64,000 bases of DNA from Alteromonas sp. M12 (GTDB taxonomy: Bacteria > Pseudomonadota > Gammaproteobacteria > Enterobacterales > Alteromonadaceae), in assembly GCF_037478005.1 (NCBI RefSeq), contig NZ_CP144164.1, forward strand, positions 930,001-994,000. Reading direction: 5' to 3'. A program made the translations under genes and the position numbers. Under the pieces are notes generated by a model. It was not told where the DNA came from and ran no database searches. It saw nothing but the letters and a program-made list of their open reading frames with translations. How positions within the stretch are numbered: position 1 is the first letter of the stretch; the number at the start of each line of letters is the position of its first letter. Positions 669 to 16,245 of the stretch are shown in pieces.

Positions 669-3401
669 ATGTCACGTATTTTTAGCCGCACAGCAACAGA
701 ATTGATTCGCAACACTGCACTTTGTGTAGTTATCTGCGTTTTATTAGTGAGTTGTGGCGGGGAAAATCAGTTAATTTCGTCATCTCAAGAGCCCGATCCC
801 GTGGTTATTGATGTACCTATAGCTTATGTCAAACGCCCGTTACCTTTAGATGAAGATGGCGTGTTAATCACTGACGACTTAAGACAACCTTTTGAATTTT
901 TGCCCGGAGCGGCTTTATATATTAAGCCCCGTGCGTCCGCCAGTGCAGTGGAAACTAACATAACGGACCGCGCTTTTTTCACTGCAGAACAAATCGAACA
1001 AGCTACAGAACAAAATCCCTTAGCTGGTTACGACGTGAAAGATGTGGATGTGTCTTATGACTCTGAACGATTAGTTTTTGCTATGCGCGCGCCGGAAATT
1101 GAAGGGCTAGATGATGATCAACAACCAACTTGGAATATTTGGGAATATAACCGTATTTCTGACCAATTGCGTCGCGTGATCAGCTCTGATATTCAAGCCG
1201 AAGAAGGGCAAGATACCGGGCCTACCTATTTGCCCGATGGTCGAATTGTATTTAGCTCAACCCGTCAAGCAGGGAATCAGGCAATATTATTAGATGAAGG
1301 CAAACCTCAGTATCTTGGTTTAGACGAAGGCTTAGATGAATATGCGTCAGTGATTCATGTGATGGAGAGTGATGGCTCCAACATTCAGCAAATATCTTTC
1401 AATCAAAGTCATGATTTGGATCCGGTTGTACTAACGAATGGTAAAATTTTGTTTAGCCGTTGGGATCAGGCTGGCAATAATAACAGCATCAATCTTTATC
1501 AAATGAACAGCGATGGCTCCGGTCTCGAGATTCTGTATGGCCGTCATAGTCATGCTAGTGAGCGCACAACCCAAAGTTTGCAGTTTGTAAAAGTCAGAGA
1601 ATTACAAGATGGCAGCATATTAAGTGCGATCCGTCCGTTTGATAGTGACACTATTGGTGGTGATTTTGTCAGTATCGATTACATGAATTACATCGACAAC
1701 AACCAAAGCATCGCTTCGCAAACAGGTTTATCTGGACCAGCACAAACCCCAGCCCTTTTTGATAATATTATTATTGATGGCAGCCTTTCGTTGGGTGGCC
1801 GATTTGCATCAGTTTATCCGCTGTGGGATGGCAGTGGACGAGTTATTTTTAGCTGGAGTCAATGTCGCGTTTATGATCCAGAGCAAGAAATTGCTGAGGG
1901 TGAAGTAGTTGAACGTAAAATTTTACCCTGTGACGATAGCCATCTTGAAAACCCAGATATTCAAGAAGCGCCGCTGTTGTTCGGTCTTTGGATGTATGAC
2001 GGCAATGAAAATACCCAGCTTCCTATTGGTGTGCCTGTTGAAGGTGAAATGTATACCGAAGCGCTGGCGATGGAAGAGCGTGCTTTTCCTGGCAATGCAC
2101 AAATAGCGGATGAATATGAACAAGCCTTGGCTGATGAAAATCTAGCAAAAGTACATATTCGTAGTGTCTACGATTTTGCCGGTGTGGATTCTTCTGCACA
2201 GGGAATCGCGGCGATGGCCGATCCTACTCAAACACCGGTATTACAGCGTCCAGTGCAGTTTTTAAGGGTAGTCAAATCGGTTTCGATTCCCGATGACGAG
2301 GTGAAAGATTTTAGTAATTCCGCATTTGGTCGCAGTCGCAGTCAATTGATGCGTGAAATTATCGGTTATGTCCCTGTTCAACCTGACGGTTCAGCCATGT
2401 TTGAAGTACCGGCAAATTTACCACTGGCGCTTAGTTTGGTCGATATTGATGGTAAGCGGGTGGGAGCGCGCCACCAAAACTGGTTACAGTTTGCTCCAGG
2501 TGAGGTCAAAACTTGTAATGGTTGCCATACACAACAAAGCACACTGCCCCACGGTCGTTTGAGTGCTGAAGCCGAATCCATAAATTTTGGCGCGACTTCC
2601 ACAGGCGTTCCTTTCCCGAATACTAATCCAGCGTTATTTGCGGACTTGGGTGAAACCATGGCGCAAACTGCAGCCCGGATTAATGGAGCCGATTATCCAC
2701 AACCTGACTTAGAATTTGTTGATATCTGGACTGATCCTGCGATAACCACGCCAGCGGAATCATTTACTTATTCCTACGCCGACTTATCCTCACCGTTGCC
2801 AATTACTGCAGCCTGCGCGACAAATTGGACAAACCTGTGTCGGATTCAAATCAATTATCCCGAATCTATCCATCCCATTTTTGAGGTAACACGTGAGGTG
2901 TTTGCTGATGATGGTGTCACGGTAGTCGAAGATAACACCTGTGTGAGCTGTCATTCGCCAACAGATGAAGCTGAAATGCCTCGAGTGCCTGTTGCTCAAT
3001 TAGATTTGAGTGGTTCGGTTTCTACCGACAACCCAGATTATCTCACTAGCTATCGTGAACTGATGTTTGCCGATGTTGAGCAAGAATTAAATGAAGGCGC
3101 CATTATTGATCGCCTAGTACAGGTGTTTGATGCCAATGGTGACCCCGTTTATGAACTAGATGAAGATGGAGAACTAATTCTTGATGCTGAGGGCAACCCA
3201 ATTCCAATCTATCGAACGGTAACTGTGGCCAATACTCTAAGCACTAATGGAGCTCGCAGCAGCGCAGCCTTCTTCACGCTCTTCGAGGATGGTGGCAGTC
3301 ATCAGGGATGGTTAACTAAATCTGAACTGAAACTAATCGCTGAATGGCTGGATATTGGCGCTCAATACTATAATAATCCCTTTGCAGCTCCGGCAGATTA
3401 G
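669..3401 (+). CDS. Two-haem HzsA-like beta-propeller lipoprotein
   Basis: This 910-residue exported protein begins with a lipoprotein signal (lipobox LVSC, no Asp at +2, so probably outer-membrane anchored). Residues about 120-400 carry PD40/TolB-like propeller strands of the form LPDGRIVFSS and NGKILFSRWD. Two c-type haem motifs follow, CNGCH at residues 616-620 and CVSCH at 758-762. The architecture resembles the alpha subunit of hydrazine synthase (HzsA) and the large family of HzsA-related proteins outside anammox bacteria. No beta or gamma hydrazine synthase subunit is present, so hydrazine chemistry is not implied. It heads a 15-gene operon that also encodes a thioredoxin, which could service haem-site thiols. 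A redox or ligand-binding role at the outer membrane is inference. Confidence 0.75.
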   Translation: MSRIFSRTATELIRNTALCVVICVLLVSCGGENQLISSSQEPDPVVIDVPIAYVKRPLPLDEDGVLITDDLRQPFEFLPGAALYIKPRASASAVETNITDRAFFTAEQIEQATEQNPLAGYDVKDVDVSYDSERLVFAMRAPEIEGLDDDQQPTWNIWEYNRISDQLRRVISSDIQAEEGQDTGPTYLPDGRIVFSSTRQAGNQAILLDEGKPQYLGLDEGLDEYASVIHVMESDGSNIQQISFNQSHDLDPVVLTNGKILFSRWDQAGNNNSINLYQMNSDGSGLEILYGRHSHASERTTQSLQFVKVRELQDGSILSAIRPFDSDTIGGDFVSIDYMNYIDNNQSIASQTGLSGPAQTPALFDNIIIDGSLSLGGRFASVYPLWDGSGRVIFSWSQCRVYDPEQEIAEGEVVERKILPCDDSHLENPDIQEAPLLFGLWMYDGNENTQLPIGVPVEGEMYTEALAMEERAFPGNAQIADEYEQALADENLAKVHIRSVYDFAGVDSSAQGIAAMADPTQTPVLQRPVQFLRVVKSVSIPDDEVKDFSNSAFGRSRSQLMREIIGYVPVQPDGSAMFEVPANLPLALSLVDIDGKRVGARHQNWLQFAPGEVKTCNGCHTQQSTLPHGRLSAEAESINFGATSTGVPFPNTNPALFADLGETMAQTAARINGADYPQPDLEFVDIWTDPAITTPAESFTYSYADLSSPLPITAACATNWTNLCRIQINYPESIHPIFEVTREVFADDGVTVVEDNTCVSCHSPTDEAEMPRVPVAQLDLSGSVSTDNPDYLTSYRELMFADVEQELNEGAIIDRLVQVFDANGDPVYELDEDGELILDAEGNPIPIYRTVTVANTLSTNGARSSAAFFTLFEDGGSHQGWLTKSELKLIAEWLDIGAQYYNNPFAAPAD

Positions 3402-3404
3402 TTG

Positions 3405-4154
3405 ATGGAAAGTATGGCAAAGTGGATCGCCCTTATCGGGTTAATGTTAATAATAAATACGGCGCATGCCGAAGAACAGTTGCCTGAAGTGCAAATTGTT
3501 GAGCCTTATATCGATATGCGCACAGGACCCGCTGTAGGTTATCCAATTTTTCACGTAGCTGAAAAAGGCGAATGGATCAGTATTCTTAAACGTCGCACTA
3601 GTTGGTTTAAGGTACGCACTCAAAAAGGCAAAGAAGGTTGGGTGTCGTTAGATGAACTCAAGCTTACTGTGAGCAGTCAGGGTGAGCCTGTACAGATAGA
3701 AGATGGCAGTTTTAGTAGCTATCAACAACGTGATTTTGAATTGGGCGCCAGCGGTGGCTCACTAGAAGGTGTGCCGTCGTTAAGTATTTTTGGTGCTTGG
3801 GTCGTCACCGAGAATATTGCCGCAGAACTGAGTTATAGCCAAGCATTGGGGGACTTTTCTGAAAACCAATTTGGGTTGCTAAGTGTGACCCACACAACGT
3901 TTCCAGAGTGGCGATTATCGCCGTATTTTCGCCTTGGTTTTGGACAAATTAAAACCAAGCCTACAGCTAATTTAGTGCAATCAGGTGAAGAAACTCGAAC
4001 CAACGATTTATTGGTTGGTGGGATTGGGGTGCGGTATTACCTAGCGCAGAATTTTGTCGTGAAATTCGAATATCAAAACTTACTTGCGCTGACTGAGCGT
4101 GATGAAAATGAGGAGCTTGAAGAGTGGAAACTCGGATTTGCAGTTTTTTTCTAG
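3405..4154 (+). CDS. Bacterial SH3 domain fused to a predicted outer-membrane beta-barrel
   Basis: The protein has a cleavable signal peptide ending near AHA-EEQ, then a bacterial SH3 domain (about residues 28-85, with IDMRTGPAVGYPIF and a GWVSLDEL strand). The C-terminal half consists of alternating amphipathic strands ending in Phe, as in outer-membrane barrels. The SH3 part probably binds peptidoglycan or a partner in the periplasm. Starts are possible at TTG 3402, ATG 3405 or ATG 3414; the last gives the cleanest signal peptide. It follows the preceding stop directly and overlaps the next gene by 31 nt, so translation is probably coupled. Specific function unknown. Confidence 0.7.
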   Translation: MESMAKWIALIGLMLIINTAHAEEQLPEVQIVEPYIDMRTGPAVGYPIFHVAEKGEWISILKRRTSWFKVRTQKGKEGWVSLDELKLTVSSQGEPVQIEDGSFSSYQQRDFELGASGGSLEGVPSLSIFGAWVVTENIAAELSYSQALGDFSENQFGLLSVTHTTFPEWRLSPYFRLGFGQIKTKPTANLVQSGEETRTNDLLVGGIGVRYYLAQNFVVKFEYQNLLALTERDENEELEEWKLGFAVFF

Positions 4155-4768
4155 GGGTCATTTTAATTAGTACAGGCAATTTTGCTTATGCGCAGGCAGA
4201 TGATCGAGCTGCGGTACAAAACGTGATTGAGCCTGATCTAAAACGCAGAGATATAAATGAGTCGAATATTGATACTGAAGATTTCGAAATTGGCTTATTC
4301 GCTGGCGTGATTAGCATCGAAGACTTTTCATCTAGCTCATTAGTTGGAGCACGATTAACTTACCACATTAATGAAGATTTTTTTGTGGAGGCTAGTTATG
4401 GTCAAGCAACAGCAGGCGAAACGAGTTTTGAGTTATTAAGTGGCGGCGCGCCTTTCTTAACTGAAGACGAACGAGAATATAGTTATTACGACCTGTCACT
4501 GGGTTATAACCTCAATGGCGAAGTGTTTTTAAGCCGTGATTGGGTGTTCAACTCTGCCACTTATTTTACGCTAGGCGCAGGTAGTACAGAATTCGGCGGC
4601 GATAATCGTTTCACCGTCAGTGTAGGAGCAGGGTATCGGTTGTTATTAACTGACTATTTTGCAGTACATGTGGGGCTAAAAGACCACATTTTTAATAGTG
4701 AAATCATTGGCGAAGAAAAAACAACGCACAACATCGAGTATGGACTCGGTGCCACGTTTTTCTTTTGA
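4124..4768 (+). CDS. Predicted outer-membrane beta-barrel protein
   Basis: This 214-residue protein starts at GTG 4124 behind AGGAG at 4111-4115, inside the end of the SH3-barrel gene. It has a signal peptide ending AYA-QAD, and after about residue 50 it is a run of amphipathic beta strands finishing with aromatic residues (ATFFF), typical of an 8-stranded barrel recognised by the BAM machinery. It resembles small barrels found with gliding-motility-type Exb/AgmX gene sets, but that assignment rests on pattern and context. Barrel topology is a prediction; substrate and role are unknown. Confidence 0.65.
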   Translation: METRICSFFLGVILISTGNFAYAQADDRAAVQNVIEPDLKRRDINESNIDTEDFEIGLFAGVISIEDFSSSSLVGARLTYHINEDFFVEASYGQATAGETSFELLSGGAPFLTEDEREYSYYDLSLGYNLNGEVFLSRDWVFNSATYFTLGAGSTEFGGDNRFTVSVGAGYRLLLTDYFAVHVGLKDHIFNSEIIGEEKTTHNIEYGLGATFFF

Positions 4769-4805: not shown

Positions 4806-5318
4806 ATGAATTCAAAACCTTTATCTAACTTTGTTTTATTGTTTATCGCTGTGATGTCTTTAACCATACTAACAGCCTTTACCGCAGGAGCTGCCGAGTT
4901 GCAATCAGCGCCAGATTTCACCTTGAAAAGTAATAGCGGTGAAAATTTGCGACTTGAAGAGCAGCAGGGCAATGTGGTCATAGTCAATTTTTGGGCTTCT
5001 TGGTGTGCTCCTTGCCGTGAAGAGTTACCGCATTTTGATGCTATGCAAAAAGAATATGAAGATCTTGGTTTTACCATTTTAGCCGTGAATGTTGATGAGT
5101 ACCCTGAAAAAGCGAATAACTTGCTCAATGACATTCCCGTTAGCTTTCCGGTCTTGTTCGATAATCAGGATCAAGTGAGCAAGCTTTATGATGTAAGAGC
5201 AATGCCAACGACTGTGATAATCGACCGTGATGGTAATAAACGTTTAACCCATTACGGTTATAAAAGCGGTGACGAAGCTAAGTATGAGAAAGTCGTTAAA
5301 GCGCTACTTCGAGAGTAA
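4806..5318 (+). CDS. TlpA/ResA-family periplasmic thioredoxin
   Basis: A 170-residue thioredoxin-fold protein with an N-terminal signal or anchor segment (residues about 8-28) and the active site WCAPC with Cys67 and Cys70. A cis-proline loop (AMPTT) and the APDFTL start of the AhpC/TSA-TlpA fold are visible. Relatives reduce or exchange disulphides outside the cytoplasm, classically apocytochrome c CxxCH thiols. In this operon the plausible clients are the CxxCH-containing first gene product and the Cys-tailed DUF4266 lipoprotein, which is inference. It lies 37 nt after the barrel gene, with CGGAG upstream of the ATG. Confidence 0.85.
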   Translation: MNSKPLSNFVLLFIAVMSLTILTAFTAGAAELQSAPDFTLKSNSGENLRLEEQQGNVVIVNFWASWCAPCREELPHFDAMQKEYEDLGFTILAVNVDEYPEKANNLLNDIPVSFPVLFDNQDQVSKLYDVRAMPTTVIIDRDGNKRLTHYGYKSGDEAKYEKVVKALLRE

Positions 5319-5374
5319 GCACTTACTTTTATAATTGGCTAGATTTTAAAAAATAAAATACACAAGGATTGATG

Positions 5375-5620
5375 ATGAAAAAACAACTGCTTCGATACAG
5401 TATGGGTGGCTTGATTTTCACCAGCGTGCTGTTTGTCAGCGGCTGTGCAACTTCCATTGAGCCATGGGTGAAGCCCTATGAACGCGACAATTTGGCTGAC
5501 CCAATTATGAGTGCAAATCGCAATCCTGTATCTTTTAGTTATACAATGCATGCGTTCCAAGCGCGCGAAGGTGCTCGTGGTGCGGAAGGCGGTGCTGGCG
5601 GTGGTTGTGGGTGCAACTAG
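5375..5620 (+). CDS. DUF4266 small lipoprotein with Gly/Cys-rich C-terminal tail
   Basis: An 81-residue lipoprotein (lipobox VSGC, lipidated Cys24). The mature part contains EPWVKPYERDNLADPIM, the signature I associate with DUF4266, followed by a Gly-rich tail ending GGGCGCN. AAGGA at 5364-5368 sits 6 nt before ATG 5375, which favours this start over TTG 5369 and ATG 5372. From memory, DUF4266 proteins commonly neighbour DUF3570 and thioredoxin genes, exactly as here. The two terminal cysteines could bind metal, form a disulphide or carry a modification; nothing in the sequence decides this. Confidence 0.8.
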   Translation: MKKQLLRYSMGGLIFTSVLFVSGCATSIEPWVKPYERDNLADPIMSANRNPVSFSYTMHAFQAREGARGAEGGAGGGCGCN

Positions 5621-5633
5621 GGTGAACACTAAT

Positions 5634-6776
5634 ATGAACAACCCCATGCTGGTTATTTACATCCTAATGCCATTGTTGTTGATGGTTTCTAGTACCAGTT
5701 ACGCAGCAGTTTTACCGCAAGAACGTGCTGATGTGATGTATCACTCCTATGAAGGCGATGGTATGTCCATTGATGGCCCATCGGTGTTGGTGCGCAAACA
5801 AATCGGTAATAAAGTGTCGGTTTCAGCAAACTACTATGTAGACATGATTTCCGGCGCATCCATCGATGTATTAGCCACTGCCAGTCCTTACGAAGAAGAG
5901 CGTACAGAACATAGCGTGGGGGTTGATTTCCTTCACAATAAAACCTTAATGAATCTAAACTTTACCAGCAGTTCCGAAAACGATTTTGAAGCGCGGTCGG
6001 TGCATTTTGGTATTTCTCAAGATTTTTTCGGCGACTTAACCACCTTAAGCATGGGTTATTCAAAAGGTTGGGATGAAGTGGGCAAACGCGGTGATGACAA
6101 TTTTCTTGAAGAAGCTGAACGTCAACAATTTCAATTCGGTATAACCCAAGTACTCACAAAAAATATGATTGTTGGTATCAACTTCGAAAACATTTCAGAC
6201 GAAGGTTACTTAAATAATCCCTATCGTGCAGTGCGTTATGTTGATCCGACCGCCGATCGGGGATATCGTTTCGAAACGGAAGTTTATCCAAATACCCGTA
6301 CCAGTAACGCCGCCGCAATCAATCTGAATTACTATTTACCTTATCGAGCCAGCATTTATGGTGAAGCGAGAGTCTTTTCAGATACTTGGGGAATAGATGC
6401 CAATAGTTACAAAATTGGTTATATCCATACCTTTGGTGACAATTGGATTTTGGATTTACGGGTTAGGCAATATCAACAAGGTAATGCCGATTTTTATCAA
6501 GATCTATTTGCTCGCAGCGCTGAATTTAATTTTCGTGCCCGTGACAAAGAAATGAGCTCATTTAAAAATACCTCTGTTGGTTTGAGTGTCACCTATGAAT
6601 ACCGATTTTCTCAGAGTTCTTGGGTGAAAAAAGGTACGATAAATTACGAATTAGACCATCTGCGCTTCCAGTATGATGACTTTAGAAATGTTTTGGCCGA
6701 TGCACCTGTTGGTGAAGAGCCTTTATTTGAATTTTCTGCCAATGTGACACGCTTATTTGTGTCGTTTTGGTATTAG
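5634..6776 (+). CDS. DUF3570 outer-membrane beta-barrel protein
   Basis: A 380-residue protein with a signal peptide ending near SYA-AVL and then long alternating beta strands (for example SVSANYYVDMISGAS, and a C-terminal FVSFWY) typical of a large barrel. The N-terminal block MSIDGPSVLVRK matches what I recall of DUF3570. The open frame extends up to 5511 inside the DUF4266 gene, but ATG 5634, 9 nt after an AGGGTG, gives a proper signal peptide and is preferred. Together with the preceding lipoprotein it forms the DUF4266-DUF3570 pair. It may be a transport or assembly pore; the function of the family is unknown to me. Confidence 0.75.
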   Translation: MNNPMLVIYILMPLLLMVSSTSYAAVLPQERADVMYHSYEGDGMSIDGPSVLVRKQIGNKVSVSANYYVDMISGASIDVLATASPYEEERTEHSVGVDFLHNKTLMNLNFTSSSENDFEARSVHFGISQDFFGDLTTLSMGYSKGWDEVGKRGDDNFLEEAERQQFQFGITQVLTKNMIVGINFENISDEGYLNNPYRAVRYVDPTADRGYRFETEVYPNTRTSNAAAINLNYYLPYRASIYGEARVFSDTWGIDANSYKIGYIHTFGDNWILDLRVRQYQQGNADFYQDLFARSAEFNFRARDKEMSSFKNTSVGLSVTYEYRFSQSSWVKKGTINYELDHLRFQYDDFRNVLADAPVGEEPLFEFSANVTRLFVSFWY

Positions 6777-6784
6777 GGAACGAG

Positions 6785-7321
6785 ATGAAACTGATGACTT
6801 TACGCACTTTTATGCTGACTATTTTGTTGTTCTCGATTGCATTTCAAGGCAATGCGCAGCAATCAGATGTCACTGAACAACAGACGGTTGCAAAGCAATT
6901 ACAACAATTAAGAAAAGAGGTGATTGCGCTTAATCGAGATTTGTTTGTACTTGAGGAAGATTTGCTTTTCCCATCAAGCACTCAAGTTGTGGTGTACCTT
7001 TCCGTGGATGTAGGTACTTACTTCAAGTTAGATGCGGTGGAGTTGAAAATTGACGACAAAGTCGTAACCGAATACCTCTACACAGACCGTCAAGTCGATG
7101 CGCTCTACCGTGGTGGTGTGCAACGCTTACATATTGGCAATTTAGCACAAGGGGAACATCAGATTAGTGCGTTTTTTATTGGCTTGGGTCCACAAGGGCG
7201 TGAATTTAAAAGAGCGACTAGCTTAACCTTCACTAAAGACTCCGATGCCAAAGCGTTGGAGCTCAATATTAATGACCAAACTGGGAAGCAGCAACCTGAG
7301 TTCACAGTGGTAGAACTTTAG
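6785..7321 (+). CDS. Exported coiled-coil protein of unknown function
   Basis: A 178-residue protein with a signal peptide ending GNA-QQS. A predicted coiled coil follows (about residues 37-65, rich in Q, L, K and E). The C-terminal half is beta-rich, with a segment GNLAQGEHQISAFFIG that looks like an immunoglobulin-like or carbohydrate-binding-type sandwich. AGGGA at 6775-6779 lies 5 nt before ATG 6785; the open frame extends to TTG 6767 but that start would spoil the signal. I do not recognise a named family. Its position between the DUF3570 barrel and the TPR proteins suggests a periplasmic linker or adaptor. Confidence 0.55.
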   Translation: MKLMTLRTFMLTILLFSIAFQGNAQQSDVTEQQTVAKQLQQLRKEVIALNRDLFVLEEDLLFPSSTQVVVYLSVDVGTYFKLDAVELKIDDKVVTEYLYTDRQVDALYRGGVQRLHIGNLAQGEHQISAFFIGLGPQGREFKRATSLTFTKDSDAKALELNINDQTGKQQPEFTVVEL

Positions 7322-7339
7322 TGATTGGAATTTTGTTCA

Positions 7340-9292
7340 ATGGTTAAAAAGTTTTTAATCCTACGAAATTCAATGTTGTCAGTGTTCGCCTGGCTGATGC
7401 TCGGTGGACCGGTTTTGTCGGCACAAAAATGTGACACCGTCTTAGTCGATAAAGCATATCAAGAAATTTTGTATTTCTACTTCCAACACGACTTTTATCA
7501 AGCCTTAACCCAATTTGAGATACTCCAACAAGCCTGTCCCGACTCGTTATCAAAAATTACCCAGCCAGGAGTCGATCCGCAGCTACTCAAAGGTGGCATT
7601 AGCTTAGCTTATGGCCTAGATGACCAAGCGGCTGAGATTTTTAATCAGTTATTGACTAAAGCCGCAACCTTGGAGACACAAACTCAAGCTTGGTTTTTGT
7701 TAGGTAAATCATTGTTTGAAAAGCAGCAATACCAAGCTGCATCGACTATTTTGAATAAGATCAATATAGATAATGCTGACCAATATCTACAAACACAAGA
7801 CAAAGACCAATGGTTATATATGCAAAGTCAGCTGTTCAATTGGCAGACCAGCCAATCTATTACTGTGGCTCGGGACAACAGCTATTGGTTAAATGAATTA
7901 TCTGATGATTCGGTTTTTCGCCAATACGTGATTTATAATCAAGGTTTGCATCAACTACAATCTAATCAGTATGTGCAAGGGATTGAAACCTTAGAACAAA
8001 TTGGCTTATCCGATAGCAGTTTTTTGGACGACTTGCTAGGTGGATGGTGGTCACCGTTAACCGTAGTCGACCAAACTGAAACCGATGCACTGCGAGACCG
8101 AGCTAATCTAACAATTGGCTATGCCCATCTTAAAAATCAGCAAGCATTAAATGCATTAGACGCCTTTAATCGAGTTCGACTTGATAGTTTAGATTCTGAC
8201 TCAGCATTACTTGGTTATGGTTGGGCTGCCGCGCAAAGAGAAGAATATCAAATCGCTTTATCGGCTTGGCAACGTTTACAACAACAACCGCGCAGCAACG
8301 AATATGTAATGGAATCGTATTTGGCTTCAGCCTATGCGTTTGAACAGGCATTTGCACCGACTCAAGCATTGGATAATTTACAGCGAGGATTAAAACGCTT
8401 TGCCCTAGAAAAAGATTTATTACGTGCCCATCAACAGGAAATTGACGACCAATATTTTATTCAATTGGCGAAGACCAAGGATTGGTCACTGCAAATACCT
8501 GCCCATTTATCATCGATAATGCTCAGTAGCGCATTTCGGAATAAAATAGCTTGGCTGGAAGAGAGTTTAACTCTGCAAGCGCGGTTTGAACGCTGGCAAC
8601 AGCAGCTTGATACATTCAGTCTAATGTTGGATGAGCGTCAACAAGAAGCGCAGTCACGACAGCAGGCCCTTAAACAAAACGATTTATTGTCTAAATTGCA
8701 ACAATACCAAATGTTACGAGATTCGCTGCAGGCGAAGTTAGTACAATCTTCAACTGAGCCCAAAATATTAGCCGAGCAGCAAGAGTTGGATTGGCAAGCA
8801 CGACTTGAACGCGCTCAGCAACGACATAAAGATGTTAGTGATGCTTGGTTAACGTTGAATAAAAAACCTTTGAAACCTCTCTATGCAGACCGTCTAAAAC
8901 GGTTAGAAGGAATAATGATTTGGAATGCTTCTGAGTCTTACTCTAAAAGACGTTGGCAAGCACAGAAATTGTTAAACGAATTGGATGAATTGATTGCGCA
9001 AACCGCACAACAGCAAGCACAACTCATCGCTCGACTAAATCAGACACCTGAATACCCTGCGCAGCGACAACGGATCGCACAACTACAAGAAAATCTTGAG
9101 GTGCAGCAGCGACGCAATCAATCTATACAAAGCCAACAGTTGGCAAGTTTAAATTTGTTATTTGTGGAACAAATAAACCAACAAATTGCGCAATTGGAAA
9201 GTTATGAGTTACAGGCCCAGTTAGCCGTAGTAAGACTTAACGATAAAGCCTATAGAAAAGCCGAAGCTGACAAACAGGGGGCAAAACAATGA
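7340..9292 (+). CDS. Exported TPR/coiled-coil protein, Gln-rich
   Basis: A 650-residue periplasmic protein with a signal peptide ending VLSA-QKC. Residues about 30-380 show helical repeats of TPR type (for example AWFLLGKSLFEKQQYQAAS and GYAHLKNQQALNALDAF). The last 250 residues are very rich in Gln and look like long coiled coils. It could be a scaffold spanning the periplasm. ATG 7340 is preferred over TTG 7325. The stop overlaps the start of the next gene by 4 nt, so the two TPR proteins are probably made together. No enzymatic motif is visible. Confidence 0.6.
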   Translation: MVKKFLILRNSMLSVFAWLMLGGPVLSAQKCDTVLVDKAYQEILYFYFQHDFYQALTQFEILQQACPDSLSKITQPGVDPQLLKGGISLAYGLDDQAAEIFNQLLTKAATLETQTQAWFLLGKSLFEKQQYQAASTILNKINIDNADQYLQTQDKDQWLYMQSQLFNWQTSQSITVARDNSYWLNELSDDSVFRQYVIYNQGLHQLQSNQYVQGIETLEQIGLSDSSFLDDLLGGWWSPLTVVDQTETDALRDRANLTIGYAHLKNQQALNALDAFNRVRLDSLDSDSALLGYGWAAAQREEYQIALSAWQRLQQQPRSNEYVMESYLASAYAFEQAFAPTQALDNLQRGLKRFALEKDLLRAHQQEIDDQYFIQLAKTKDWSLQIPAHLSSIMLSSAFRNKIAWLEESLTLQARFERWQQQLDTFSLMLDERQQEAQSRQQALKQNDLLSKLQQYQMLRDSLQAKLVQSSTEPKILAEQQELDWQARLERAQQRHKDVSDAWLTLNKKPLKPLYADRLKRLEGIMIWNASESYSKRRWQAQKLLNELDELIAQTAQQQAQLIARLNQTPEYPAQRQRIAQLQENLEVQQRRNQSIQSQQLASLNLLFVEQINQQIAQLESYELQAQLAVVRLNDKAYRKAEADKQGAKQ

Positions 9293-12234
9293 GCCAACCT
9301 GTTTATTTTTCACGACTATTTTCAGTCCGTACGCTTCGTTCGTTAGTCTTGCTTATCAGTACTTTTTATTTGCTCGCGTGTGCAGGCATGTTTGACGAAC
9401 CACCAGCGGTCAATTCTGTGGAAAAACGTAAAACGCTGGGAGAATTCTACTTTGAGCCTGTGACTTTGAATCATGACCCCTTGCCCGATCAGGGACTAAA
9501 GACATTGCGCGATGCGTACGTGAGTTTACTGGATATCGTCGAGGATCAAGAAACCATAAAAATCGTACAATATCGTCTGGCGGATTTAGAAGTATTGCTC
9601 GCTGAGCAACAGCAAGAGGTTGGTTCCGCTCCCATGGATAGGGGGGTTTATGACCTTGCAATTGCCCAATATCAATCAATTTTGGAACGTCATCCTGAAC
9701 AAAAGGAAAATGCAGAGGTTCTTTATCAATTAGCCAAGGCCCATGATTTGCAAGGTGAGTCGCAGCAGAGTTTGCAAGTAATAGATAGGCTTTTAAGTAA
9801 ATACCCTCACACCCTTTATTTAGCTGAATTGCAGTTCAGACGCGGTGAAATTCTATTCAACAATAAAGATTACAGTGCGGCTATTCAGGCTTATCAGACC
9901 GTGCTCGAGCAAGGCCCTTATACTGACTACTTCATGACCGCTGCCTATATGTTGGGCTGGAGCTATTTTAAAGTCGAACTTTATCAAGACGCGTTATTGG
10001 CCTTTACTCAACTACTGGATCAAAAATTACCCAATAGCGTGATAGATTTTCAGATGTTGAGACAATTGAATGCTGAACAGCAATTAGAAAAATTGCCGGT
10101 TGGAGAAAAGCGGCTAGTCAACGATAGTATTCGTATCATGGCGCTGCTGTTTTCATATCAAGGCGCTGAGCAAAGTATTAAAGCTTTCTATCAGCAAGTA
10201 GGCGAACGCCATTACGAAAATTTAGTTTATGACCGTTTAGGCCAACAATTTTTAAACGAAGATCGCTTTAGAGATAGTGCTTTAGTGTATCGAGGTTTTA
10301 CTGACGTTCATCCAGAGCATAATCAAGCGCCGGTGTTTGCGGTAAAACAAATTGATGCATACATTATTGGTAAATTCCCAACATTCGTATTACCGGCCAA
10401 ACAAGATTTTGTTGACCAATACGGTATTAACGGACCATTTTGGCAAGATTGGGGACAACTGATTCAAGAAGAAGTAAAACCTTTCTTGAAAGCTTATATT
10501 CAAGAACTTGCGCAGTACGAACATAGTAAAGCGCAATTGTTAACCAAGGCCGCCAATCAACCAACGGAAGAGCAGTTAGATAAGGTAGATGACAATCGTC
10601 AAAAAGCACAAATTGCTTACGCTCAGGCGGCTAGTTTGTACCGCGAGTTTATTGAAACCTTTCCTCACGATGACTTAACTCCGCAAATTACCTTCAATTT
10701 GGCAGAAAGCTTATTTGAAGCTCAAAATTATCAACAAGCCATCACCGCCTATGAAAGATATGCTTATGAATATCTTAATGAACCCAGAGCTGCAGAAGCA
10801 GGTTATGCGGCGATTTTATCATTTAAGGCTCTACGAGAAACCTTGACTGATGTTGCCGCGCAACAACACTGGCAGGATGAACAACTTGCTAGCCAACAAC
10901 AATTTGTCAGTCGATTTAGTGATGATCCTAGAGCCGTGGATGTGCAGTATGACACCATGCAGCAGCTATTTGATTTACAACGTTATTTACCAGCAATCAA
11001 AAGCGCAGAAGTTGTTTTGTCTTGGCAGCCAGAGGTCAGTGAGGAACGAAAAATGGCCGGTCAATTAGTGATTGCCCATAGTGAGTTTGCGCTGCAACAA
11101 TATCAACGAGCTGAATTGAGTTACGAACAAATTTTGGCTGAATTAAACCAAGATGACCCTCTTTATAAGGACATGCTTGAACGATTGGCCGCCAGTATTT
11201 ATAAACAGGCGGAAGGGAATCTCGCAAAACAATATGTCGCCTTAGCAATCGAAGACTTTTTGAGAGTCATTGCCAAGGCTCCTACCAGTAGCGCTCGTGT
11301 CAACGCACAATATGATGCGGCAACCTATTTGATGGAATTGAAGCAGTGGCCAGAAGCAATAGGGTTGTTAGAAGACTTCAGAGTACGTTTTGCAGCCCAT
11401 TCGTTGGCTGAAAACATACAAGATAAACTGATATTTGCCTATCAACAAAACCAAAACTGGTTGCCTGCCGCTAACGAATTGAAACAATTGTGGCAAGCCA
11501 ATCCAGATTCAGAAGAAGGTCGCGAAGCTCTGTATATTGCTGCCCAATATTATCTCAAGGCCGAGCAACGGGATGCTGCACTTGATAGTTATCGCACCTA
11601 TGCTCATCGTTATCCGCTGCCATTTAACCAAGTCACTGAAGCACGTTTTCAAATGAGTGAGTTTTATGCGCAAAGCAACGAACAGGCGAAACGACGATTT
11701 TGGCTCAAAAAGCTAATTCAAGGTGATGGGCAAGCGAGTGAAGCCCGCACAGACCGTTCACGCTATCTTGCAGCAATGGCTTCTATGGTCTTTGCTGAGG
11801 ATGACGTACAGGCGTTCAACCGCGTCAAGTTATCCTTGCCCTTGAACAAGAGTTTAACTAAAAAACGCCAAGTATTAGATAAAGCGCTCGATTCTTTAAA
11901 TGCAACACTGGAATACAAAATCGCTGAATTTAGTACAGTGGCTAATTTTAAAATTGGTGAAATATATGGACAGTTAGCCCGGGACCTAATGGACTCTGAG
12001 CGACCTAAAGGCTTGTCTGAGTTGGAATTGGAGCAATATAATATTCTTCTTGAAGAACAAGCCTATCCGTTTGAAGAGCAGGCTATTGGTATCCATGAAG
12101 CGAATATTCAGCGCACTTGGCAAGGGGTATACGATCGCTGGGTGAAGGAAAGCTTCGATGCGTTGCGTAAACTGTTACCTGGCCGTTATAACAAACAAGA
12201 ACAGTTATCGGAGGCCACCAATGCGATTTTCTAA
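9289..12234 (+). CDS. Large TPR outer-membrane lipoprotein
   Basis: A 981-residue lipoprotein (lipobox LLAC, Cys31) built almost entirely of tetratricopeptide-like helical pairs; clear units include EVLYQLAKAHDLQGESQQSL, SAAIQAYQTVLEQGPY and AQNYQQAITAYERYAYEYL. BamD/YbgF-type TPR repeats are the closest style. TPR superhelices bind partner proteins, so this is a candidate assembly platform for the envelope complex encoded around it. It overlaps its upstream neighbour by 4 nt (ATGA) and its downstream neighbour by 14 nt. No catalytic motif is visible. Confidence 0.65.
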   Translation: MSQPVYFSRLFSVRTLRSLVLLISTFYLLACAGMFDEPPAVNSVEKRKTLGEFYFEPVTLNHDPLPDQGLKTLRDAYVSLLDIVEDQETIKIVQYRLADLEVLLAEQQQEVGSAPMDRGVYDLAIAQYQSILERHPEQKENAEVLYQLAKAHDLQGESQQSLQVIDRLLSKYPHTLYLAELQFRRGEILFNNKDYSAAIQAYQTVLEQGPYTDYFMTAAYMLGWSYFKVELYQDALLAFTQLLDQKLPNSVIDFQMLRQLNAEQQLEKLPVGEKRLVNDSIRIMALLFSYQGAEQSIKAFYQQVGERHYENLVYDRLGQQFLNEDRFRDSALVYRGFTDVHPEHNQAPVFAVKQIDAYIIGKFPTFVLPAKQDFVDQYGINGPFWQDWGQLIQEEVKPFLKAYIQELAQYEHSKAQLLTKAANQPTEEQLDKVDDNRQKAQIAYAQAASLYREFIETFPHDDLTPQITFNLAESLFEAQNYQQAITAYERYAYEYLNEPRAAEAGYAAILSFKALRETLTDVAAQQHWQDEQLASQQQFVSRFSDDPRAVDVQYDTMQQLFDLQRYLPAIKSAEVVLSWQPEVSEERKMAGQLVIAHSEFALQQYQRAELSYEQILAELNQDDPLYKDMLERLAASIYKQAEGNLAKQYVALAIEDFLRVIAKAPTSSARVNAQYDAATYLMELKQWPEAIGLLEDFRVRFAAHSLAENIQDKLIFAYQQNQNWLPAANELKQLWQANPDSEEGREALYIAAQYYLKAEQRDAALDSYRTYAHRYPLPFNQVTEARFQMSEFYAQSNEQAKRRFWLKKLIQGDGQASEARTDRSRYLAAMASMVFAEDDVQAFNRVKLSLPLNKSLTKKRQVLDKALDSLNATLEYKIAEFSTVANFKIGEIYGQLARDLMDSERPKGLSELELEQYNILLEEQAYPFEEQAIGIHEANIQRTWQGVYDRWVKESFDALRKLLPGRYNKQEQLSEATNAIF

Positions 12235-13036
12235 CGCGCAGGTAACGAACAAATTTTGGCATTCTGTTGGCTGTTTTTATGCACTATTGGGCTTGATTGT
12301 GTTGTTACCTGGTTGTGCCAGTATGGACAGTCTTTTTAGCTCGCCATCGACCTCTGAATCTGCGTCTCAAGAAACGTTGAGTGAGCAACAAACTAATAGC
12401 AATGCTATAACCCCAGAAGTTGCCCCTTTGGATCCCATGCAGGTCAAGATTTTAGCATTAAAATCCCAACCAAATTTATATTTGTCAGGCTCTACTGCGG
12501 TAAAAGCGTCAGTTAAATACCAATTTGACCAAGCCCTTGCCGCGAAGCAGGCGGGAAACCTCAAACAGGCCAACCAGTTATTGCAAAAATTGATTAGCCA
12601 AGAACCCACATTATCCGGTCCCTGGGTACAGTTAGGTGATCTGAAAATGCAACAATTTGCAGACACCGAGAATAACCACGAAGAACAAAAAAAAGCCTAT
12701 TTAGTTGCTGCTAAGGCGGATTATGAAACGGCCCTTGGCTTGAACCAACATAATTATTTTGCGCATAATCGTTTAGCCAAAGTATTCCGAGAAATGGGCG
12801 AGTTTGAGCTAGCTGAACAGCATTATCAATATGCTATTAGCAGTTATCCTGCTTATGACAATGCCTATTTAAACTTGGGAATATTGTATGATTTGTATCT
12901 GGGTAAAAAGCAACTAGCACTTGAAAACTACGAGCTTTATCAAGGGTTACAGGACAAGCCTAAACGACAAGTTAGGGGCTGGATAGCTGATTTACAGCGG
13001 CAGATTGCAAAATCTCAAAATGGAGTTAACAAATGA
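12221..13036 (+). CDS. TPR-repeat lipoprotein
   Basis: A 271-residue lipoprotein (lipobox LPGC, Cys32). After a Ser/Gln-rich linker, residues about 100-250 contain TPR units including ALAAKQAGNLKQANQLLQKL and FELAEQHYQYAISSYPAYD. Start ATG 12221 is placed by a GGAGG at 12210-12214; the open frame reaches further upstream into the preceding gene but would lose the lipoprotein signal. It resembles the TPR accessory proteins that accompany some TonB2-type Exb systems, although those are usually not lipoproteins. It is probably an outer- or inner-membrane-tethered adaptor. Confidence 0.65.
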   Translation: MRFSNAQVTNKFWHSVGCFYALLGLIVLLPGCASMDSLFSSPSTSESASQETLSEQQTNSNAITPEVAPLDPMQVKILALKSQPNLYLSGSTAVKASVKYQFDQALAAKQAGNLKQANQLLQKLISQEPTLSGPWVQLGDLKMQQFADTENNHEEQKKAYLVAAKADYETALGLNQHNYFAHNRLAKVFREMGEFELAEQHYQYAISSYPAYDNAYLNLGILYDLYLGKKQLALENYELYQGLQDKPKRQVRGWIADLQRQIAKSQNGVNK

Positions 13037-13377
13037 AAATTAGACGCAAAATGTTAAGCTTCTCATTCATTACTTTGTTCAGTTCTGTTAGTGTGTTTGC
13101 GCAATCTGAGCAGCAACCCTTAGATACTAATCAAGACGAGACAAAATCCAATCAAATAGTCACTGAGGTAAACGGAAAAATACTGATCCAAGATACAATT
13201 CGAGGTAATAGGGAACAGCCAAGAGTGTTATCAATTGTGCCTTGGCAACCTCCGCGAGATAAGGCATCCCTACCGAGCCCTTTTGTAAAACGAATAGAAC
13301 AAGACTTTATGCCGTTAGATCGTGAAGAGTTCACCCGCAAAGTGGAACACTTTGAACGCGCTACGGGTAAAAAATAA
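13033..13377 (+). CDS. Small exported protein of unknown function
   Basis: A 114-residue protein with a signal peptide ending VFA-QSE and a mature part of about 90 residues, including VLSIVPWQPP and a basic, helical C-terminus. It overlaps the preceding TPR gene by 4 nt (ATGA), so it is translationally coupled and clearly part of the operon. I recognise no family. A 123-nt gap follows before the Exb module. That gap contains nested inverted arms (AATAACT with AGTTATT, enclosing GGCT with AGCC) which could modulate readthrough. Confidence 0.5.
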   Translation: MKIRRKMLSFSFITLFSSVSVFAQSEQQPLDTNQDETKSNQIVTEVNGKILIQDTIRGNREQPRVLSIVPWQPPRDKASLPSPFVKRIEQDFMPLDREEFTRKVEHFERATGKK

Positions 13378-13500
13378 AACAATAACTGGCTAACAGCCGA
13401 GTAGTAAGTTATTAAAATGATTAACTGTGTGGATAATCACATACGCTAAAAACAGACAGTAATGCGTAGACTGTCGGTATTGCAAAATTAAGGTAATTTT

Positions 13501-14154
13501 ATGGATATTATAGTTCGCTTCTTTCAAGAAGGTGGTTCCTTTATGTTTCCCATTGCTGTGGTTCTGGCATTAGGAGTCGCTATCGCAATTGAGCGCTACG
13601 TGTTTTTAAGCAAGGCAAAAAAAACCAATCAAAAAGCATTCAAGTTAATCGAACCTATGTTGGAATCTGCCAACTATGAAGGCATTTTGAATTTTGGCAA
13701 AACGAATAAAGCGCCCATCAGTCGCATCATTGGCGCCGGTATCGCCAGAATGTCGTTGAGCCAACGCCGTGAAGATATTGAATACGCCATGGAAGAGGGC
13801 TTGATGGAGACGACGCCGCGTTTAGAGAAGCGCACAGCTTACCTAGCTACATTGGCAAATATATCTACTTTGTTAGGCTTGTTAGGGACTATTATTGGTC
13901 TTATCGCTGCATTTTCAGCCGTTGCAACTGCCGATCCATCAGAAAAGGCTAGCTTACTTTCACAAAGTATCTCTGTGGCCATGAATACAACTGCATTTGG
14001 CTTGATAGCGGCTATTCCGCTGTTGGCTTGTCATTCTATATTGCAAACTAAAACCACTGAGATTATTGATAGTATGGAAATGGCTGGGGTGAAGTGTTTA
14101 AACACCTTGATGGGACGCCAGGCAATTTCTACCCGTTCACGTAACACGGATTAA
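13501..14154 (+). CDS. MotA/TolQ/ExbB-family proton channel subunit
   Basis: A 217-residue inner-membrane protein with three predicted membrane helices (about residues 14-33, 113-140 and 160-182) and the family core TLLGLLGTIIGLI followed by NTTAFGLIAAIPLL. ExbB/TolQ pentamers surround ExbD/TolR dimers and convert proton-motive force into movement or force on a TonB/TolA-like partner. It lies 6 nt upstream of the first ExbD gene. Context (two ExbD genes, a TonB-like gene and many envelope proteins) is closer to AglR-type motors or TonB2-type systems than to Tol-Pal. Confidence 0.85.
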   Translation: MDIIVRFFQEGGSFMFPIAVVLALGVAIAIERYVFLSKAKKTNQKAFKLIEPMLESANYEGILNFGKTNKAPISRIIGAGIARMSLSQRREDIEYAMEEGLMETTPRLEKRTAYLATLANISTLLGLLGTIIGLIAAFSAVATADPSEKASLLSQSISVAMNTTAFGLIAAIPLLACHSILQTKTTEIIDSMEMAGVKCLNTLMGRQAISTRSRNTD

Positions 14155-14160
14155 TTCCAT

Positions 14161-14700
14161 ATGTTGGGCAGAAAAAAACGTCTGCAAAAGCAGGATGCGG
14201 AATTAGATATCACTTCATTTATGAATTTGATGATAGTTTTAGTGCCTGTGTTACTGATGATGATGGTGTTTTCTCGAATCACCGTTTTAGAACTGACGTT
14301 ACCAGAACTTGGTGAAGCCTCAGAGCAAACTGATTTGGATGAAGAAGACAAACAGTTGGAAATTATCGTGCGTCACTCAGGTCTCGAAGTTTTTTATCCC
14401 CAAGGGTATTTAGTTAAATCGATTCCAAACTTGGATCAAGAGTATGATTATGAAGCGCTGCAATATGTGTTAAAACAAATTAAACAAACGCTCAAAAATC
14501 AAGAATTGGAAAAGAACCAAGCCACATTGTTGCTAGAACATGACATACCTTATCAGGTCATAGTGGCATTAATGGATACCACCCGTTCATATGAAGACGT
14601 CGTAGTGGCATCTGTGGTTCAAGCTGAATTGTTTCCACAAATTTCATTGGGTGATGCGCCACTAGAAGACGTTTCTAACCAATCGAACCAAACCCCATAG
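14161..14700 (+). CDS. ExbD/TolR-family protein 1, key Asp replaced by Asn
   Basis: A 179-residue protein with one membrane helix (about residues 18-37, ITSFMNLMIVLVPVLLMMM) and a periplasmic ExbD/TolR domain. In ExbD and TolR the N-terminal part of the helix carries an essential proton-binding Asp (ExbD Asp25, TolR Asp23) in an xxDVxLVLL context. Here the aligned residue is Asn22 (MNLMIVLV). The neighbouring second ExbD keeps the Asp. The pair may form an asymmetric heterodimer with a single titratable site; that is inference from alignment by eye. Confidence 0.8.
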   Translation: MLGRKKRLQKQDAELDITSFMNLMIVLVPVLLMMMVFSRITVLELTLPELGEASEQTDLDEEDKQLEIIVRHSGLEVFYPQGYLVKSIPNLDQEYDYEALQYVLKQIKQTLKNQELEKNQATLLLEHDIPYQVIVALMDTTRSYEDVVVASVVQAELFPQISLGDAPLEDVSNQSNQTP

Positions 14701-14713
14701 CAGAGGATTAGCG

Positions 14714-15244
14714 ATGAAAAAATCAGTACGCGCCTCTCGCATGGAGAGACATCACAAGCGCATGGCACAAACGTCCAAACTAAGTTTGGTATCGTTAATG
14801 GATATTTTTACGATTCTGGTATTTTTCTTAATGTTTAATGCATCAGATGTGCAGGTTTTACAAACTGATAAAAGTGTTAAATTGCCAGAATCTACAGCCG
14901 ATACGGCAGCCCAAGAAACCTTAGTTTTGCTGGTAAATGCCAAGCATATTTTACTGCAAGGTCAAAAAATGGCTGACGTTGCTCAGGTGATGTCACAATC
15001 TGATGAGATCATTCCTGCACTCGAAAAAGAGCTAGCCTATCAAAAAAGTCGCACAAAAATTATTGCGGTTGACAGCAGTGAAGAACAAGATCCAAATGAG
15101 ATTGCTCGAGCGATTACCATAATGGGTGATCAGGCCATTCCTTACAGTTTACTTAAAAAAATAATGCAAACTTGCGCGCAAGCGGGCTATACCAATATAT
15201 CTCTTGCGGTAGAGCAACAACTACCAGCTGAGGGGGATAAATGA
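14714..15244 (+). CDS. ExbD/TolR-family protein 2 with conserved Asp
   Basis: A 176-residue protein with a basic cytoplasmic N-terminus, one membrane helix (about residues 23-42) and a periplasmic ExbD-like domain (C-terminal part ALLKK-type helix then TNISLAVEQ). The helix contains SLMDIFTILVFFL, so Asp30 sits where ExbD Asp25 and TolR Asp23 sit. It is expected to pair with the first ExbD inside the ExbB pentamer. GAGGATTAG precedes the ATG, and the stop overlaps the next start by 4 nt. Confidence 0.82.
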   Translation: MKKSVRASRMERHHKRMAQTSKLSLVSLMDIFTILVFFLMFNASDVQVLQTDKSVKLPESTADTAAQETLVLLVNAKHILLQGQKMADVAQVMSQSDEIIPALEKELAYQKSRTKIIAVDSSEEQDPNEIARAITIMGDQAIPYSLLKKIMQTCAQAGYTNISLAVEQQLPAEGDK

Positions 15245-16245
15245 GTTCCCTAAGTCATTATCAGTTTAGAAGCCAGTTGCCCTGGTCTTCTAGTGAGCAG
15301 GAAAACAAATTTTTCAGCAAATTAACCATTGGGGTTTTAGCGATTACCTTTATGCTGGCCCTAATCGTTAAATTGCAGCAGTTACCAGAGCAAACCCGAG
15401 AAGAAAAGGAGCGGGTTCCGCCCCAGTTGACTAGAATTATCGAGGCTCAAAAAGTTGAACCACCTAAACCTATAGAGCCGCCTAAACCCATTCCGGAAGA
15501 GATTCCTGAGGTTAAAAAAGAGCAGCCAAAAGAACCGCCCAAGCCACCAAAGCCAGAAAAAAAGGCAGAAAAACCGAAAGAAAAACCGCAACCTAAAGTC
15601 GAGGTGAAAAAACCAACTGACGCAGAATTAGCCAACCAAGCTAGGGAAAAAGCCAGTCAAAGCGGTTTGCTACAATTTACCGATGATTTGAACAGTATGC
15701 GTGAGCAAGCCAATATAAATAATTTGGCGGATACCGAAATGATCAAAGGTGCAGGCAAAACTAATGAACAGCAACGTGCTTTTGTGGGCAAAAAAGTGGC
15801 AGATAAAAGTGGCGGTTTAAACACCAGCGATTTATCAACTGACGTGGGAGCAAGAGGCCAATTAGCTGGCCGTAAAACCACAGAATTTGATGCCCCCAAT
15901 GAAGGTTTAGCGTCTCTTGCTGCTAAAGAGCTAGTCACCGAAGATACTGTGCTAGGCAGTCGAGATATTGAATCGATTCGTAAAGGTTTTGATGTCAACA
16001 AAGGTGCCTTGTACACCATTTATCGTCGAGCTTTAAGAGATGATCCCAGTTTACAGGGAAAAATTACGGTTAACCTCGAAATCGCCCCTGATGGTTCTGT
16101 AACCAAAGTAAAACTGGTATCTAGTGAATTGGACTTTCCAGAGTTGGAAGAAAAGTTACTTAATCGGATTCGATTGATGAACTTTGGTGCTGATCAAGTA
16201 ACCGCTACGATTTTGGATTACTCCTTAGACTTTTTCCCATTTTAA
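15241..16245 (+). CDS. TonB-like energy transducer with AgmX/PglI-type C-terminal domain
   Basis: A 334-residue protein with one membrane anchor (about residues 27-45), a long Pro/Lys/Glu linker (about residues 70-125, repeated PPKP and EKPKEK) that could span the periplasm as in TonB, and a C-terminal domain (about 235-334) with GKITVNLEIAPDGSVTKVKLVSS. That domain matches the AgmX/PglI C-terminal, TonB-related family. It is likely the element moved by the Exb-type channel and the contact to outer-membrane partners. It closes the 15-gene operon. No clear rho-independent terminator follows; a REP array begins 12 nt downstream. Confidence 0.8.
   Translation: MSSLSHYQFRSQLPWSSSEQENKFFSKLTIGVLAITFMLALIVKLQQLPEQTREEKERVPPQLTRIIEAQKVEPPKPIEPPKPIPEEIPEVKKEQPKEPPKPPKPEKKAEKPKEKPQPKVEVKKPTDAELANQAREKASQSGLLQFTDDLNSMREQANINNLADTEMIKGAGKTNEQQRAFVGKKVADKSGGLNTSDLSTDVGARGQLAGRKTTEFDAPNEGLASLAAKELVTEDTVLGSRDIESIRKGFDVNKGALYTIYRRALRDDPSLQGKITVNLEIAPDGSVTKVKLVSSELDFPELEEKLLNRIRLMNFGADQVTATILDYSLDFFPF

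Follow-up and report, generated by a model that had tools for sequence, protein, structure and literature searches.

Two described systems stand closest to the locus reported here. In several Gammaproteobacteria, aglRQS together with gltC, gltD, gltE, and gltG have been reported to form one cluster, to which no function was assigned, with one additional gene, which in the non-delta core clusters is described as having no myxobacterial homologue (Luciano 2011, PMC3169522). According to a 2013 paper, this core complex stands alone in many gammaproteobacteria, perhaps as a basal transport machinery (PMC3858216). The second system comprises clusters of DUF3570, DUF4266, thioredoxin, and ApbE genes, and a Chlorobium DUF3570 protein has been shown to be flavinylated (Meheust 2021, PMC8238504). 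Counterparts of both are found in a run of 15 genes of Alteromonas sp. M12, at positions 669 to 16245 of the window, that is, the whole stretch of 64,000 nucleotides (nt) that was analyzed (contig NZ_CP144164.1, positions 930001 to 994000) from a 5.01-Mb genome assembled as one contig. Positions given below are those of the window, with the exception of those of the upstream genes U1 to U3 and of ApbE, which follow the contig numbering, and of those prefixed by a G (genome) or L (locus) label. Genes 1 to 6 (g01 to g06) constitute a redox/outer-membrane module, which begins with the gene of an HzsA-like cytochrome, and genes 7 to 15 (g07 to g15) a motor core; the fifteen genes are most of an approximately 19-gene system which is common to many relatives. 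Each half already has a described counterpart (PMC3169522; PMC8238504), and on the combination of module and core no paper was found in open-licence PMC text. The original prediction, made from the sequence alone, had known of no described pathway with this composition; the core half was published in 2011 (PMC3169522).

Comparison of gene content across approximately 25 families revealed that genomes with the redox module nearly always possess the motor core as well, and that the two belong together is well supported by their distribution. Three samples were used, namely, 119 genomes of the order, 276 gammaproteobacterial genomes that were at least 90% complete, and the best 80 named GTDB loci (genomes and loci are referred to by G and L labels, respectively); the last are the closest HzsA matches, and hence biased, and derive in part from the same genomes as the other two samples. 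Among the 276 genomes of the class, HzsA was present in 41, the core in 66, and both in 40, such that the core accompanied 40 of the 41 HzsA genomes versus 26 of the 235 without HzsA (Fisher, 2e-29, kinship ignored). HzsA was found in 26 families, and HzsA with the core in 25. The two were located within 25 kb of each other in 29 of the 40 genomes, representing 19 families, while in the remaining 11 they were on different contigs of draft assemblies. Forty-three genomes of the class encoded a DUF3570 protein of the type associated with the system (at least 270 bits against profile A5, a limit chosen after inspection of the scores), and all 43 possessed the core; below this limit were a fragment in G184 (169.5 bits) and matches of at most 152 bits, which were taken to be other DUF3570 proteins. 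U3 was detected in 39 genomes of the class, 36 of which carried HzsA and 37 the core.

In the order, the core was sought with the 981-amino-acid (aa) tetratricopeptide repeat (TPR) protein g09, which yielded matches in 23 of the 119 genomes; 22 were counted, G093 being excluded as its match covered 99 residues only. The resulting loci contain the nine-gene core with or without the HzsA-to-DUF3570 block, and the HzsA-like gene, present in 16 of the 119 genomes, was in every case found within the 22 core genomes (Fisher, 2.8e-15, kinship ignored). The two blocks adjoin as in the window in 8 of these 16 (G000, G006, G016, G020, G031, G090, G105, and G113), with a contig end falling within the core of G016, and in G038 the blocks point toward one another, ApbE being located in the middle. 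G017 and G058 were too fragmented for adjacency to be called, both contigs of G017 ending inside g07, as adjacency would give. A second core, L039 (G016:C12), is carried by G016 without a redox module, besides its HzsA-linked core.

A similar constancy was evident among the named loci. In the 58 long loci, for which at least approximately 9 kb was shown on each side, each of genes 1 to 6 was present in 57 or 58, and part of the core was within reach in 50. The position of the core varies: it may directly follow DUF3570, come after an ApbE, or lie on the opposite strand past U3. By title, the best 80 loci are gammaproteobacterial, two being given just as Pseudomonadota, and they include Aliiglaciecola, Paraglaciecola, Glaciecola, Alteromonas, Marinobacter, Hahella, Aliikangiella, Kangiellaceae, and symbionts of Ctena and Escarpia, among others. 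Chance co-location of the two halves was rejected in view of the constancy of the genes, the co-presence and linkage of HzsA and core, and the 43 of 43 association of DUF3570 with the core.

Two loci, L047 and L192, contain a core with the barrels, TlpA, and DUF3570, and no HzsA was found in them. The resulting nested series (core alone, core plus relay, and full system) suggests, at the level of gene content, a link of the relay with the motor and, in turn, of the cytochromes and U3 with the relay. On a tree of 54 TPR proteins, eight changes of HzsA label were needed, and well-supported branches required at least six of them (mean for shuffled labels, 18.3). This tree was obtained by a quick method and has several long branches; it included at most 20 picked named loci and proteins of more than 800 aa (850 aa for named loci), and open reading frames (ORFs) of more than 1,150 aa were cut to their last 1,000. 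These label changes do not support the view that HzsA and the core were paired only once, and in this tree the company of HzsA was gained or lost several times.

The ORF check of the window confirmed that the 15 genes lie on the same strand at the positions originally given, including that of DUF4266, with gaps of at most 123 nt (from g01 to g15, with best-guess starts, 3, -31, 37, 50, 13, 8, 18, -4, -14, -4, 123, 6, 13, and -4 nt). The proposed operon thus stood as a run of ORFs but not as the start of the set, given that three divergent genes lie just upstream of position 669. The widest gap, of 123 nt between g11 and the ExbB gene (13378 to 13500), was scanned for terminator- and promoter-like sites: no terminator-like site was listed within it, and a weak promoter-like match (9/12) begins at 13390, in a scan whose 24 sites were fewer than those of shuffled sequences (mean, 36.9). 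Downstream of the operon are genes for a DUF4190 membrane protein (17093 to 17554) and an M19 dipeptidase-family protein (19228 to 20424), as assigned by Pfam. The domain names put forward earlier were borne out by Pfam and NCBIfam, these being HZS_alpha with two CxxCH motifs, AhpC-TSA/ResA, DUF4266, DUF3570, ExbB, two ExbDs, and the AgmX/PglI tail. The alignments used comprised sequences from 10 of the 16 HzsA genomes (A1), 10 of the 22 cores (A2), 45 of 72 U3 ORFs (A3), and the window DUF3570 with 33 of 69 DUF3570 ORFs (A5). Profiles excluded ORFs below 60% of the median length, motif counts refer to near-full-length ORFs, and the gene tables of the loci omit unmatched ORFs below 90 to 100 aa.

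The redox module begins with g01 (669 to 3401, plus strand, as are all genes of the operon), predicted to encode an HzsA-like lipoprotein with two c-type heme motifs (HZS_alpha, PF18582, 60.4 bits; cut-off, 26.6). Two CxxCH motifs were found in 80 of 80 relatives, a weak match to PDB 5c2v was obtained, and the protein is 99% identical to its counterpart in Aliiglaciecola lipolytica D2R05 and 85% identical to that in A. lipolytica E3, on which ground the host is regarded here as an Aliiglaciecola. The next two genes specify putative outer-membrane barrels: g02 (3402 to 4154; probable start, ATG 3405), in which SH3_3 and OMP_b-brl both score over cut-off, and g03 (4124 to 4768), which belongs to the OMP_myx_plus family (TIGR04565, 170.6 bits; cut-off, 60). 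These are followed by g04 (4806 to 5318), the product of which resembles TlpA/ResA-type periplasmic thioredoxins (AhpC-TSA, 101 bits) and whose WCxxC motif is present in 71 of 71 relatives, and g05 (5369 to 5620), specifying a small, lipoprotein-like DUF4266 protein (PF14086, 78 bits); a CxC motif is present among the final 25 residues of 73 of 74 relatives. Among the DUF4266 relatives printed as examples, a Gly-rich C-terminal tail, GGGCGCN, is nearly constant. The thiol and heme motifs of the module are thus nearly invariant in the aligned relatives. The module ends with the DUF3570 gene, g06 (5634 to 6776; PF12094, 136 bits), the ORF of which opens at 5511 and has its likely start at ATG 5634. 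Its product is modeled as an outer-membrane barrel: the AlphaFold model (pLDDT, 84.9) has 16 long strands and resembles outer-membrane porins (best E value, 1.2e-9).

Just upstream of the window, U1 to U3 run divergently from the HzsA gene, occupying positions 924524 to at least 929999 of the host contig on the minus strand. U1 (approximately 430 aa) contains one CxxCH motif and a DUF1585 match under cut-off, and U2 (approximately 840 aa) contains a LamG domain, two CxxCH motifs, and, in 66 of 72 relatives, a lipobox-like pattern; the HzsA-like protein, U1, and U2 together carry five heme motifs. U3 (approximately 540 aa) has a twin-arginine pattern in 64 of 72 relatives, and its model displays an alkaline-phosphatase-like fold, as in that superfamily, with invariant Asp and His residues in the alignment. 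What we take to be a likeness of U3 to DUF1501 was not matched by a DUF1501 hit in the Pfam search of this protein. Homologues of U3 (represented by L100:3856-5460) are labeled in several databases as hypothetical or general secretion pathway protein GspF among the 120 listed of at least 7,999 matches; in light of the modeled fold, the GspF name looks wrong. U1, U2, and U3 were present in 78, 75, and 74 of the best 80 named loci, respectively, and each of them in 57 of the 58 long loci, in which both sides of HzsA were visible; by comparison of loci, U1 to U3 are shown to be near-constant and ApbE to be a recurrent neighbor. A search of 75 U1/HzsA divergent regions with 14 binding-site patterns revealed no trustworthy shared regulator site, and the CRP- and LexA-like near-matches in these regions exceeded those of one mononucleotide shuffle. 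The commonest unknown cluster among further conserved neighbors, in 10 of the best 80 loci, is a gene close to U3 whose product resembles carnosine N-methyltransferase (PF07942, 33.1 bits; cut-off, 27), found at L174:2923-4410 and in nine further named loci.

A putative flavin arm of the system is formed by DUF3570 and ApbE. The window DUF3570 contains a single SGAS motif, encoded at 5850 to 5861 and predicted to be its flavinylation site by alignment with the TGAS of the host's own canonical DUF3570; that protein belongs to a separate DUF4266-DUF3570-ApbE cluster (G000:C1:4706942-4709274), located outside the window. The motif column reads, in relaxed form, [S/T][G/S/A]A[S/T] in 68 of 69 relatives, and in the model it lies at the end of strand 3, with the longer loops on the same side. 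No strict flavinylation column (at least 35%) was found in 15 other families, the ExbDs and the transducer being outside this test, and U3 displayed one relaxed flavinylation-like column, in 59 of 72, in the same column scan. Three ApbEs are encoded by the host genome. One of these, at 999794, approximately 54 kb downstream of the operon and outside the window, clusters with system-linked copies of related genera (support, 95/85 and 99/98), while the other two form long branches elsewhere in the ApbE tree. ApbE follows the transducer gene in L042, L044, L046, L048, L049, and L052, and it was beside the core or beyond U3, within reach, in 27 of the best 80 named loci.

The nine genes of the motor core occur across loci in the order small protein, TPR-like, TPR, TPR, small protein, ExbB, ExbD, ExbD, and transducer, and the part from ExbB onward comes after the TPR genes in 19 of 22 loci of the order and 18 of 20 of the class. 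The exceptions are mostly contig ends, with L054 and L205 truly lacking motor genes in the stretch covered. In these two loci (L054:7738-19554 and L205:2954-13921), g08 to g11 are present without ExbB, ExbD, or the transducer beside type VI secretion genes (TssF, TssG, and a ClpV-like AAA gene, with a gp25-like gene in L054), and their TPR proteins group in the TPR tree with that of the motor-bearing L199. The first gene of most core loci, g07 (6767 to 7321; probable start, 6785), specifies a small, exported protein with no family over cut-off in Pfam or NCBIfam, and a second such protein, without a Pfam family, is encoded by g11 (13033 to 13377) in a conserved position before ExbB; g07 and g11 are candidates for the additional gene of the core clusters. 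Between them are g08 (7325 to 9292), g09 (9289 to 12234; 981 aa, the core marker; TPR_16, 65.7 bits), and g10 (12158 to 13036; probable start, 12221; TPR_19, 27.9 bits; cut-off, 25). Of these three, g09 and g10 are TPR lipoprotein-like proteins, which score over cut-off for some TPR models and have lipobox-like patterns in 37 of 43 and 33 of 36 relatives, respectively, and g08 is a TPR-like periplasmic protein of conserved position to which TPR models match only below cut-off. By their place in the cluster, all three are candidate counterparts of GltC, GltD, and GltE; no model of these was among the NCBIfam matches.

The motor proper is predicted to consist of an ExbB/TolQ/AglR-type channel, g12 (13501 to 14154; MotA_ExbB, 100 bits), ExbD1, g13 (14161 to 14700; ExbD, 46 bits), ExbD2, g14 (14714 to 15244; ExbD, 57.9 bits), and a transducer, g15 (15241 to 16245), with an AgmX/PglI (GltG-type) C terminus (NF033768, 55 bits; cut-off, 40). 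Against the GltG model, g15 scores 46.7 bits, far under the equivalog cut-off of 650. At what we take to be the position that usually carries the proton, ExbD2 retains Asp in 36 of 36 cores and ExbD1, which has Asn in the window, carries Asn in 31, Ser in 4, and Asp in 1 of the same 36 cores, with and without HzsA. The lack of this Asp from ExbD1 in 35 of 36 cores is a possible hallmark of this motor type. Because a conserved aspartate has been reported for each of AglQ and AglS (review, PMC9389320), the motor looks like an asymmetric variant of the Agl type.

Taken together, we propose, with about even confidence, that genes 1 to 15, U1 to U3, and a system-type ApbE form one proton-driven, trans-envelope flavin/thiol/heme system. 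The earlier view of the locus as an energized trans-envelope machine with a redox end, built on the gliding (Agl/Glt) plan, gains support from these predictions; the alternative TonB2 plan did not, as the TonB models remained below cut-off on g15 (TonB_C, 19.5 bits versus 24.6; TIGR01352, 21.8 bits versus 27.1). In the proposed mechanism, the Agl-type motor, composed of ExbB and two unlike ExbDs, one with the proton-carrying Asp, would use the proton gradient to move the GltG/TonB-like rod, which would in turn act on the TPR proteins of the periplasm and on the barrels in the outer membrane. Through these, a cytochrome complex of the HzsA-like protein, U1, and U2 would be moved, assembled, or gated, together with the phosphatase-fold protein U3. 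ApbE would place a flavin on DUF3570, and this flavin, TlpA, and the CxC-bearing C terminus of DUF4266 would constitute an electron relay over the periplasm and outer membrane to the hemes. Given that U2 has a lectin-like domain, and given the fold modeled for U3, a glycan or ester-bearing polymer is the likeliest guess for the substrate. A more tentative idea, which we consider rather unlikely, is that redox reactions at the outer membrane, or across it, are mechanically driven or gated by a gliding-type motor powered by the proton motive force; if true, motor strokes would open or move the flavin-bearing barrel and its heme partners, and a surface redox complex would be energized from the inner membrane, as TonB energizes import.

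Several observations weigh against a single system of this kind. Of the 66 core genomes of the class, 26 have no HzsA (19 of these 26 were inspected as loci, in 20 stretches), which implies another or a wider task for the core, and G149 has HzsA (as two partial matches) and U3 without the core. U3 is missing from 5 of the 41 HzsA genomes. Among the 16 HzsA genomes of the order are 5 in which the halves can be shown not to adjoin, being approximately 20 kb apart in G003, more than 1 Mb apart in G014 and G059, and on different contigs, each block with other flanking genes, in G013 and G029. The strict flavinylation motif is present in just 29 of 69 DUF3570 relatives, and it is by ordinary porin topology that the motif side of the barrel would be the outer face. 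DUF4266 is not specific to the system (31 of 119 genomes of the order, 15 of these without HzsA), nor is ApbE as a family (109 of 119), and the system-linked ApbEs are not one clade (four label changes in the tree; 9 of 500 shuffles as low). The original prediction was to fall if the two halves were mostly apart in other genomes; the class sample favors their unity (29 of 40 within 25 kb, with the other 11 on different contigs), but gene order in the order sample is less favorable, at 8 of 16 adjacent and 5 not. The non-adjacent genomes and the cores without HzsA lead us to regard the motor half as a separable machine, and since the core occurs without HzsA in 26 genomes, the dependence of module on core is, by gene content, one-way.

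This one-way dependence is simply accounted for if the core serves generally as a motor for transport or assembly, with the redox module as one of its clients, the cytochrome lipoproteins and U3 being delivered to or placed at the surface with no coupling of electron flow to motor movement. The cores found alone and the basal transport role suggested by earlier authors (PMC3858216) also favor such an arrangement, but the nesting seen at L047 and L192, which combine a core with the barrels, TlpA, and DUF3570 in the absence of HzsA, ties the relay closer to the motor than cargo would be; we view it as a real possibility, albeit one we lean against. A gliding- or Nfs-type surface-motion machine which moves a polymer, with the thiol and heme proteins serving for maturation or repair only, would suit the Agl/Glt-type motor, the AgmX/PglI tail, the OMP_myx_plus barrel, the LamG domain of U2, and the reported movement of slime or spore-coat glycan by the Agl-Glt/Nfs machines (PMC3858216). 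We judge it improbable, however, as the thiol and heme proteins are too numerous and constant for a service role and the core alone was thought by the 2011 authors not to drive motility (PMC3169522). Two independent systems of the same lineages and habitat, neighbors by history, would agree with the five non-adjacent genomes but are most improbable of all, as co-presence persists in genomes whose halves do not adjoin, the two are found linked repeatedly, in several arrangements and in 19 families, and the system's DUF3570 type accompanies the core in every one of its genomes.

The proposal of a single flavin/thiol/heme system has several consequences. The near-obligate redox company of the core provides a concrete handle on the role of one form of the complex that was published in 2011 without a function, and a setting would be provided for two orphan families, namely, the DUF3570/DUF4266 pair and the HzsA-like cytochromes found beyond anammox. 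Nor is the system rare, with an HzsA-like gene in 41 of the 276 Gammaproteobacteria sampled, and it occurs in growable genera such as Marinobacter, Alteromonas, and Aliiglaciecola.

Compared with known systems, g01 shares with the hydrazine synthase alpha subunit the Pfam middle domain, a propeller-type PD40 repeat, and two CxxCH motifs but differs in its score of 44.6 bits against an NCBIfam equivalog cut-off of 800, on which basis hydrazine synthesis by g01 was rejected. In a 2025 study, the top structural hits included no homologue of other experimentally confirmed function (PMC12758564). With TonB/ExbBD import, the locus has in common an ExbB/ExbD-type motor and a proline-rich, single-span transducer, whereas its two ExbDs are unlike each other and the operon is without a TonB-dependent receptor. 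The clusters described by Meheust combine DUF3570 carrying [S/T]GA[S/T] and DUF4266 carrying CxC with ApbE and a thioredoxin-like protein (PMC8238504). Of these, DUF3570, DUF4266 with its CxC tail, and a thioredoxin-like protein recur in the operon, and ApbE in part of the related loci. The present system differs from them in having one motif (strict in 29 of 69) versus the two published, in a thioredoxin of another family (AhpC-TSA/Redoxin), and in the addition of the HzsA-like protein, U1 to U3, and the motor, ExbB having no occurrence in the main text of that paper.

The Agl/Glt core is the closest counterpart of the motor half. It differs in that a redox module accompanies the core here, while the main text of the 2011 paper is without the words thioredoxin, cytochrome, and redox (PMC3169522), and in that an aspartate in both ExbDs is not the rule here, ExbD1 having Asn or Ser in 35 of 36. 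Shared features are one ExbB-type and two ExbD-type genes lying together and a transducer with a GltG/AgmX tail; the cluster also contains three proteins that are TPR or TPR-like, along with small additional genes, and Marinobacter is among the genera reported in 2011 (PMC3169522) as well as here. Judged by gene content, by the AgmX/PglI tail, and by the genera in common, genes 7 to 15 would match the gammaproteobacterial Agl/Glt core complex.

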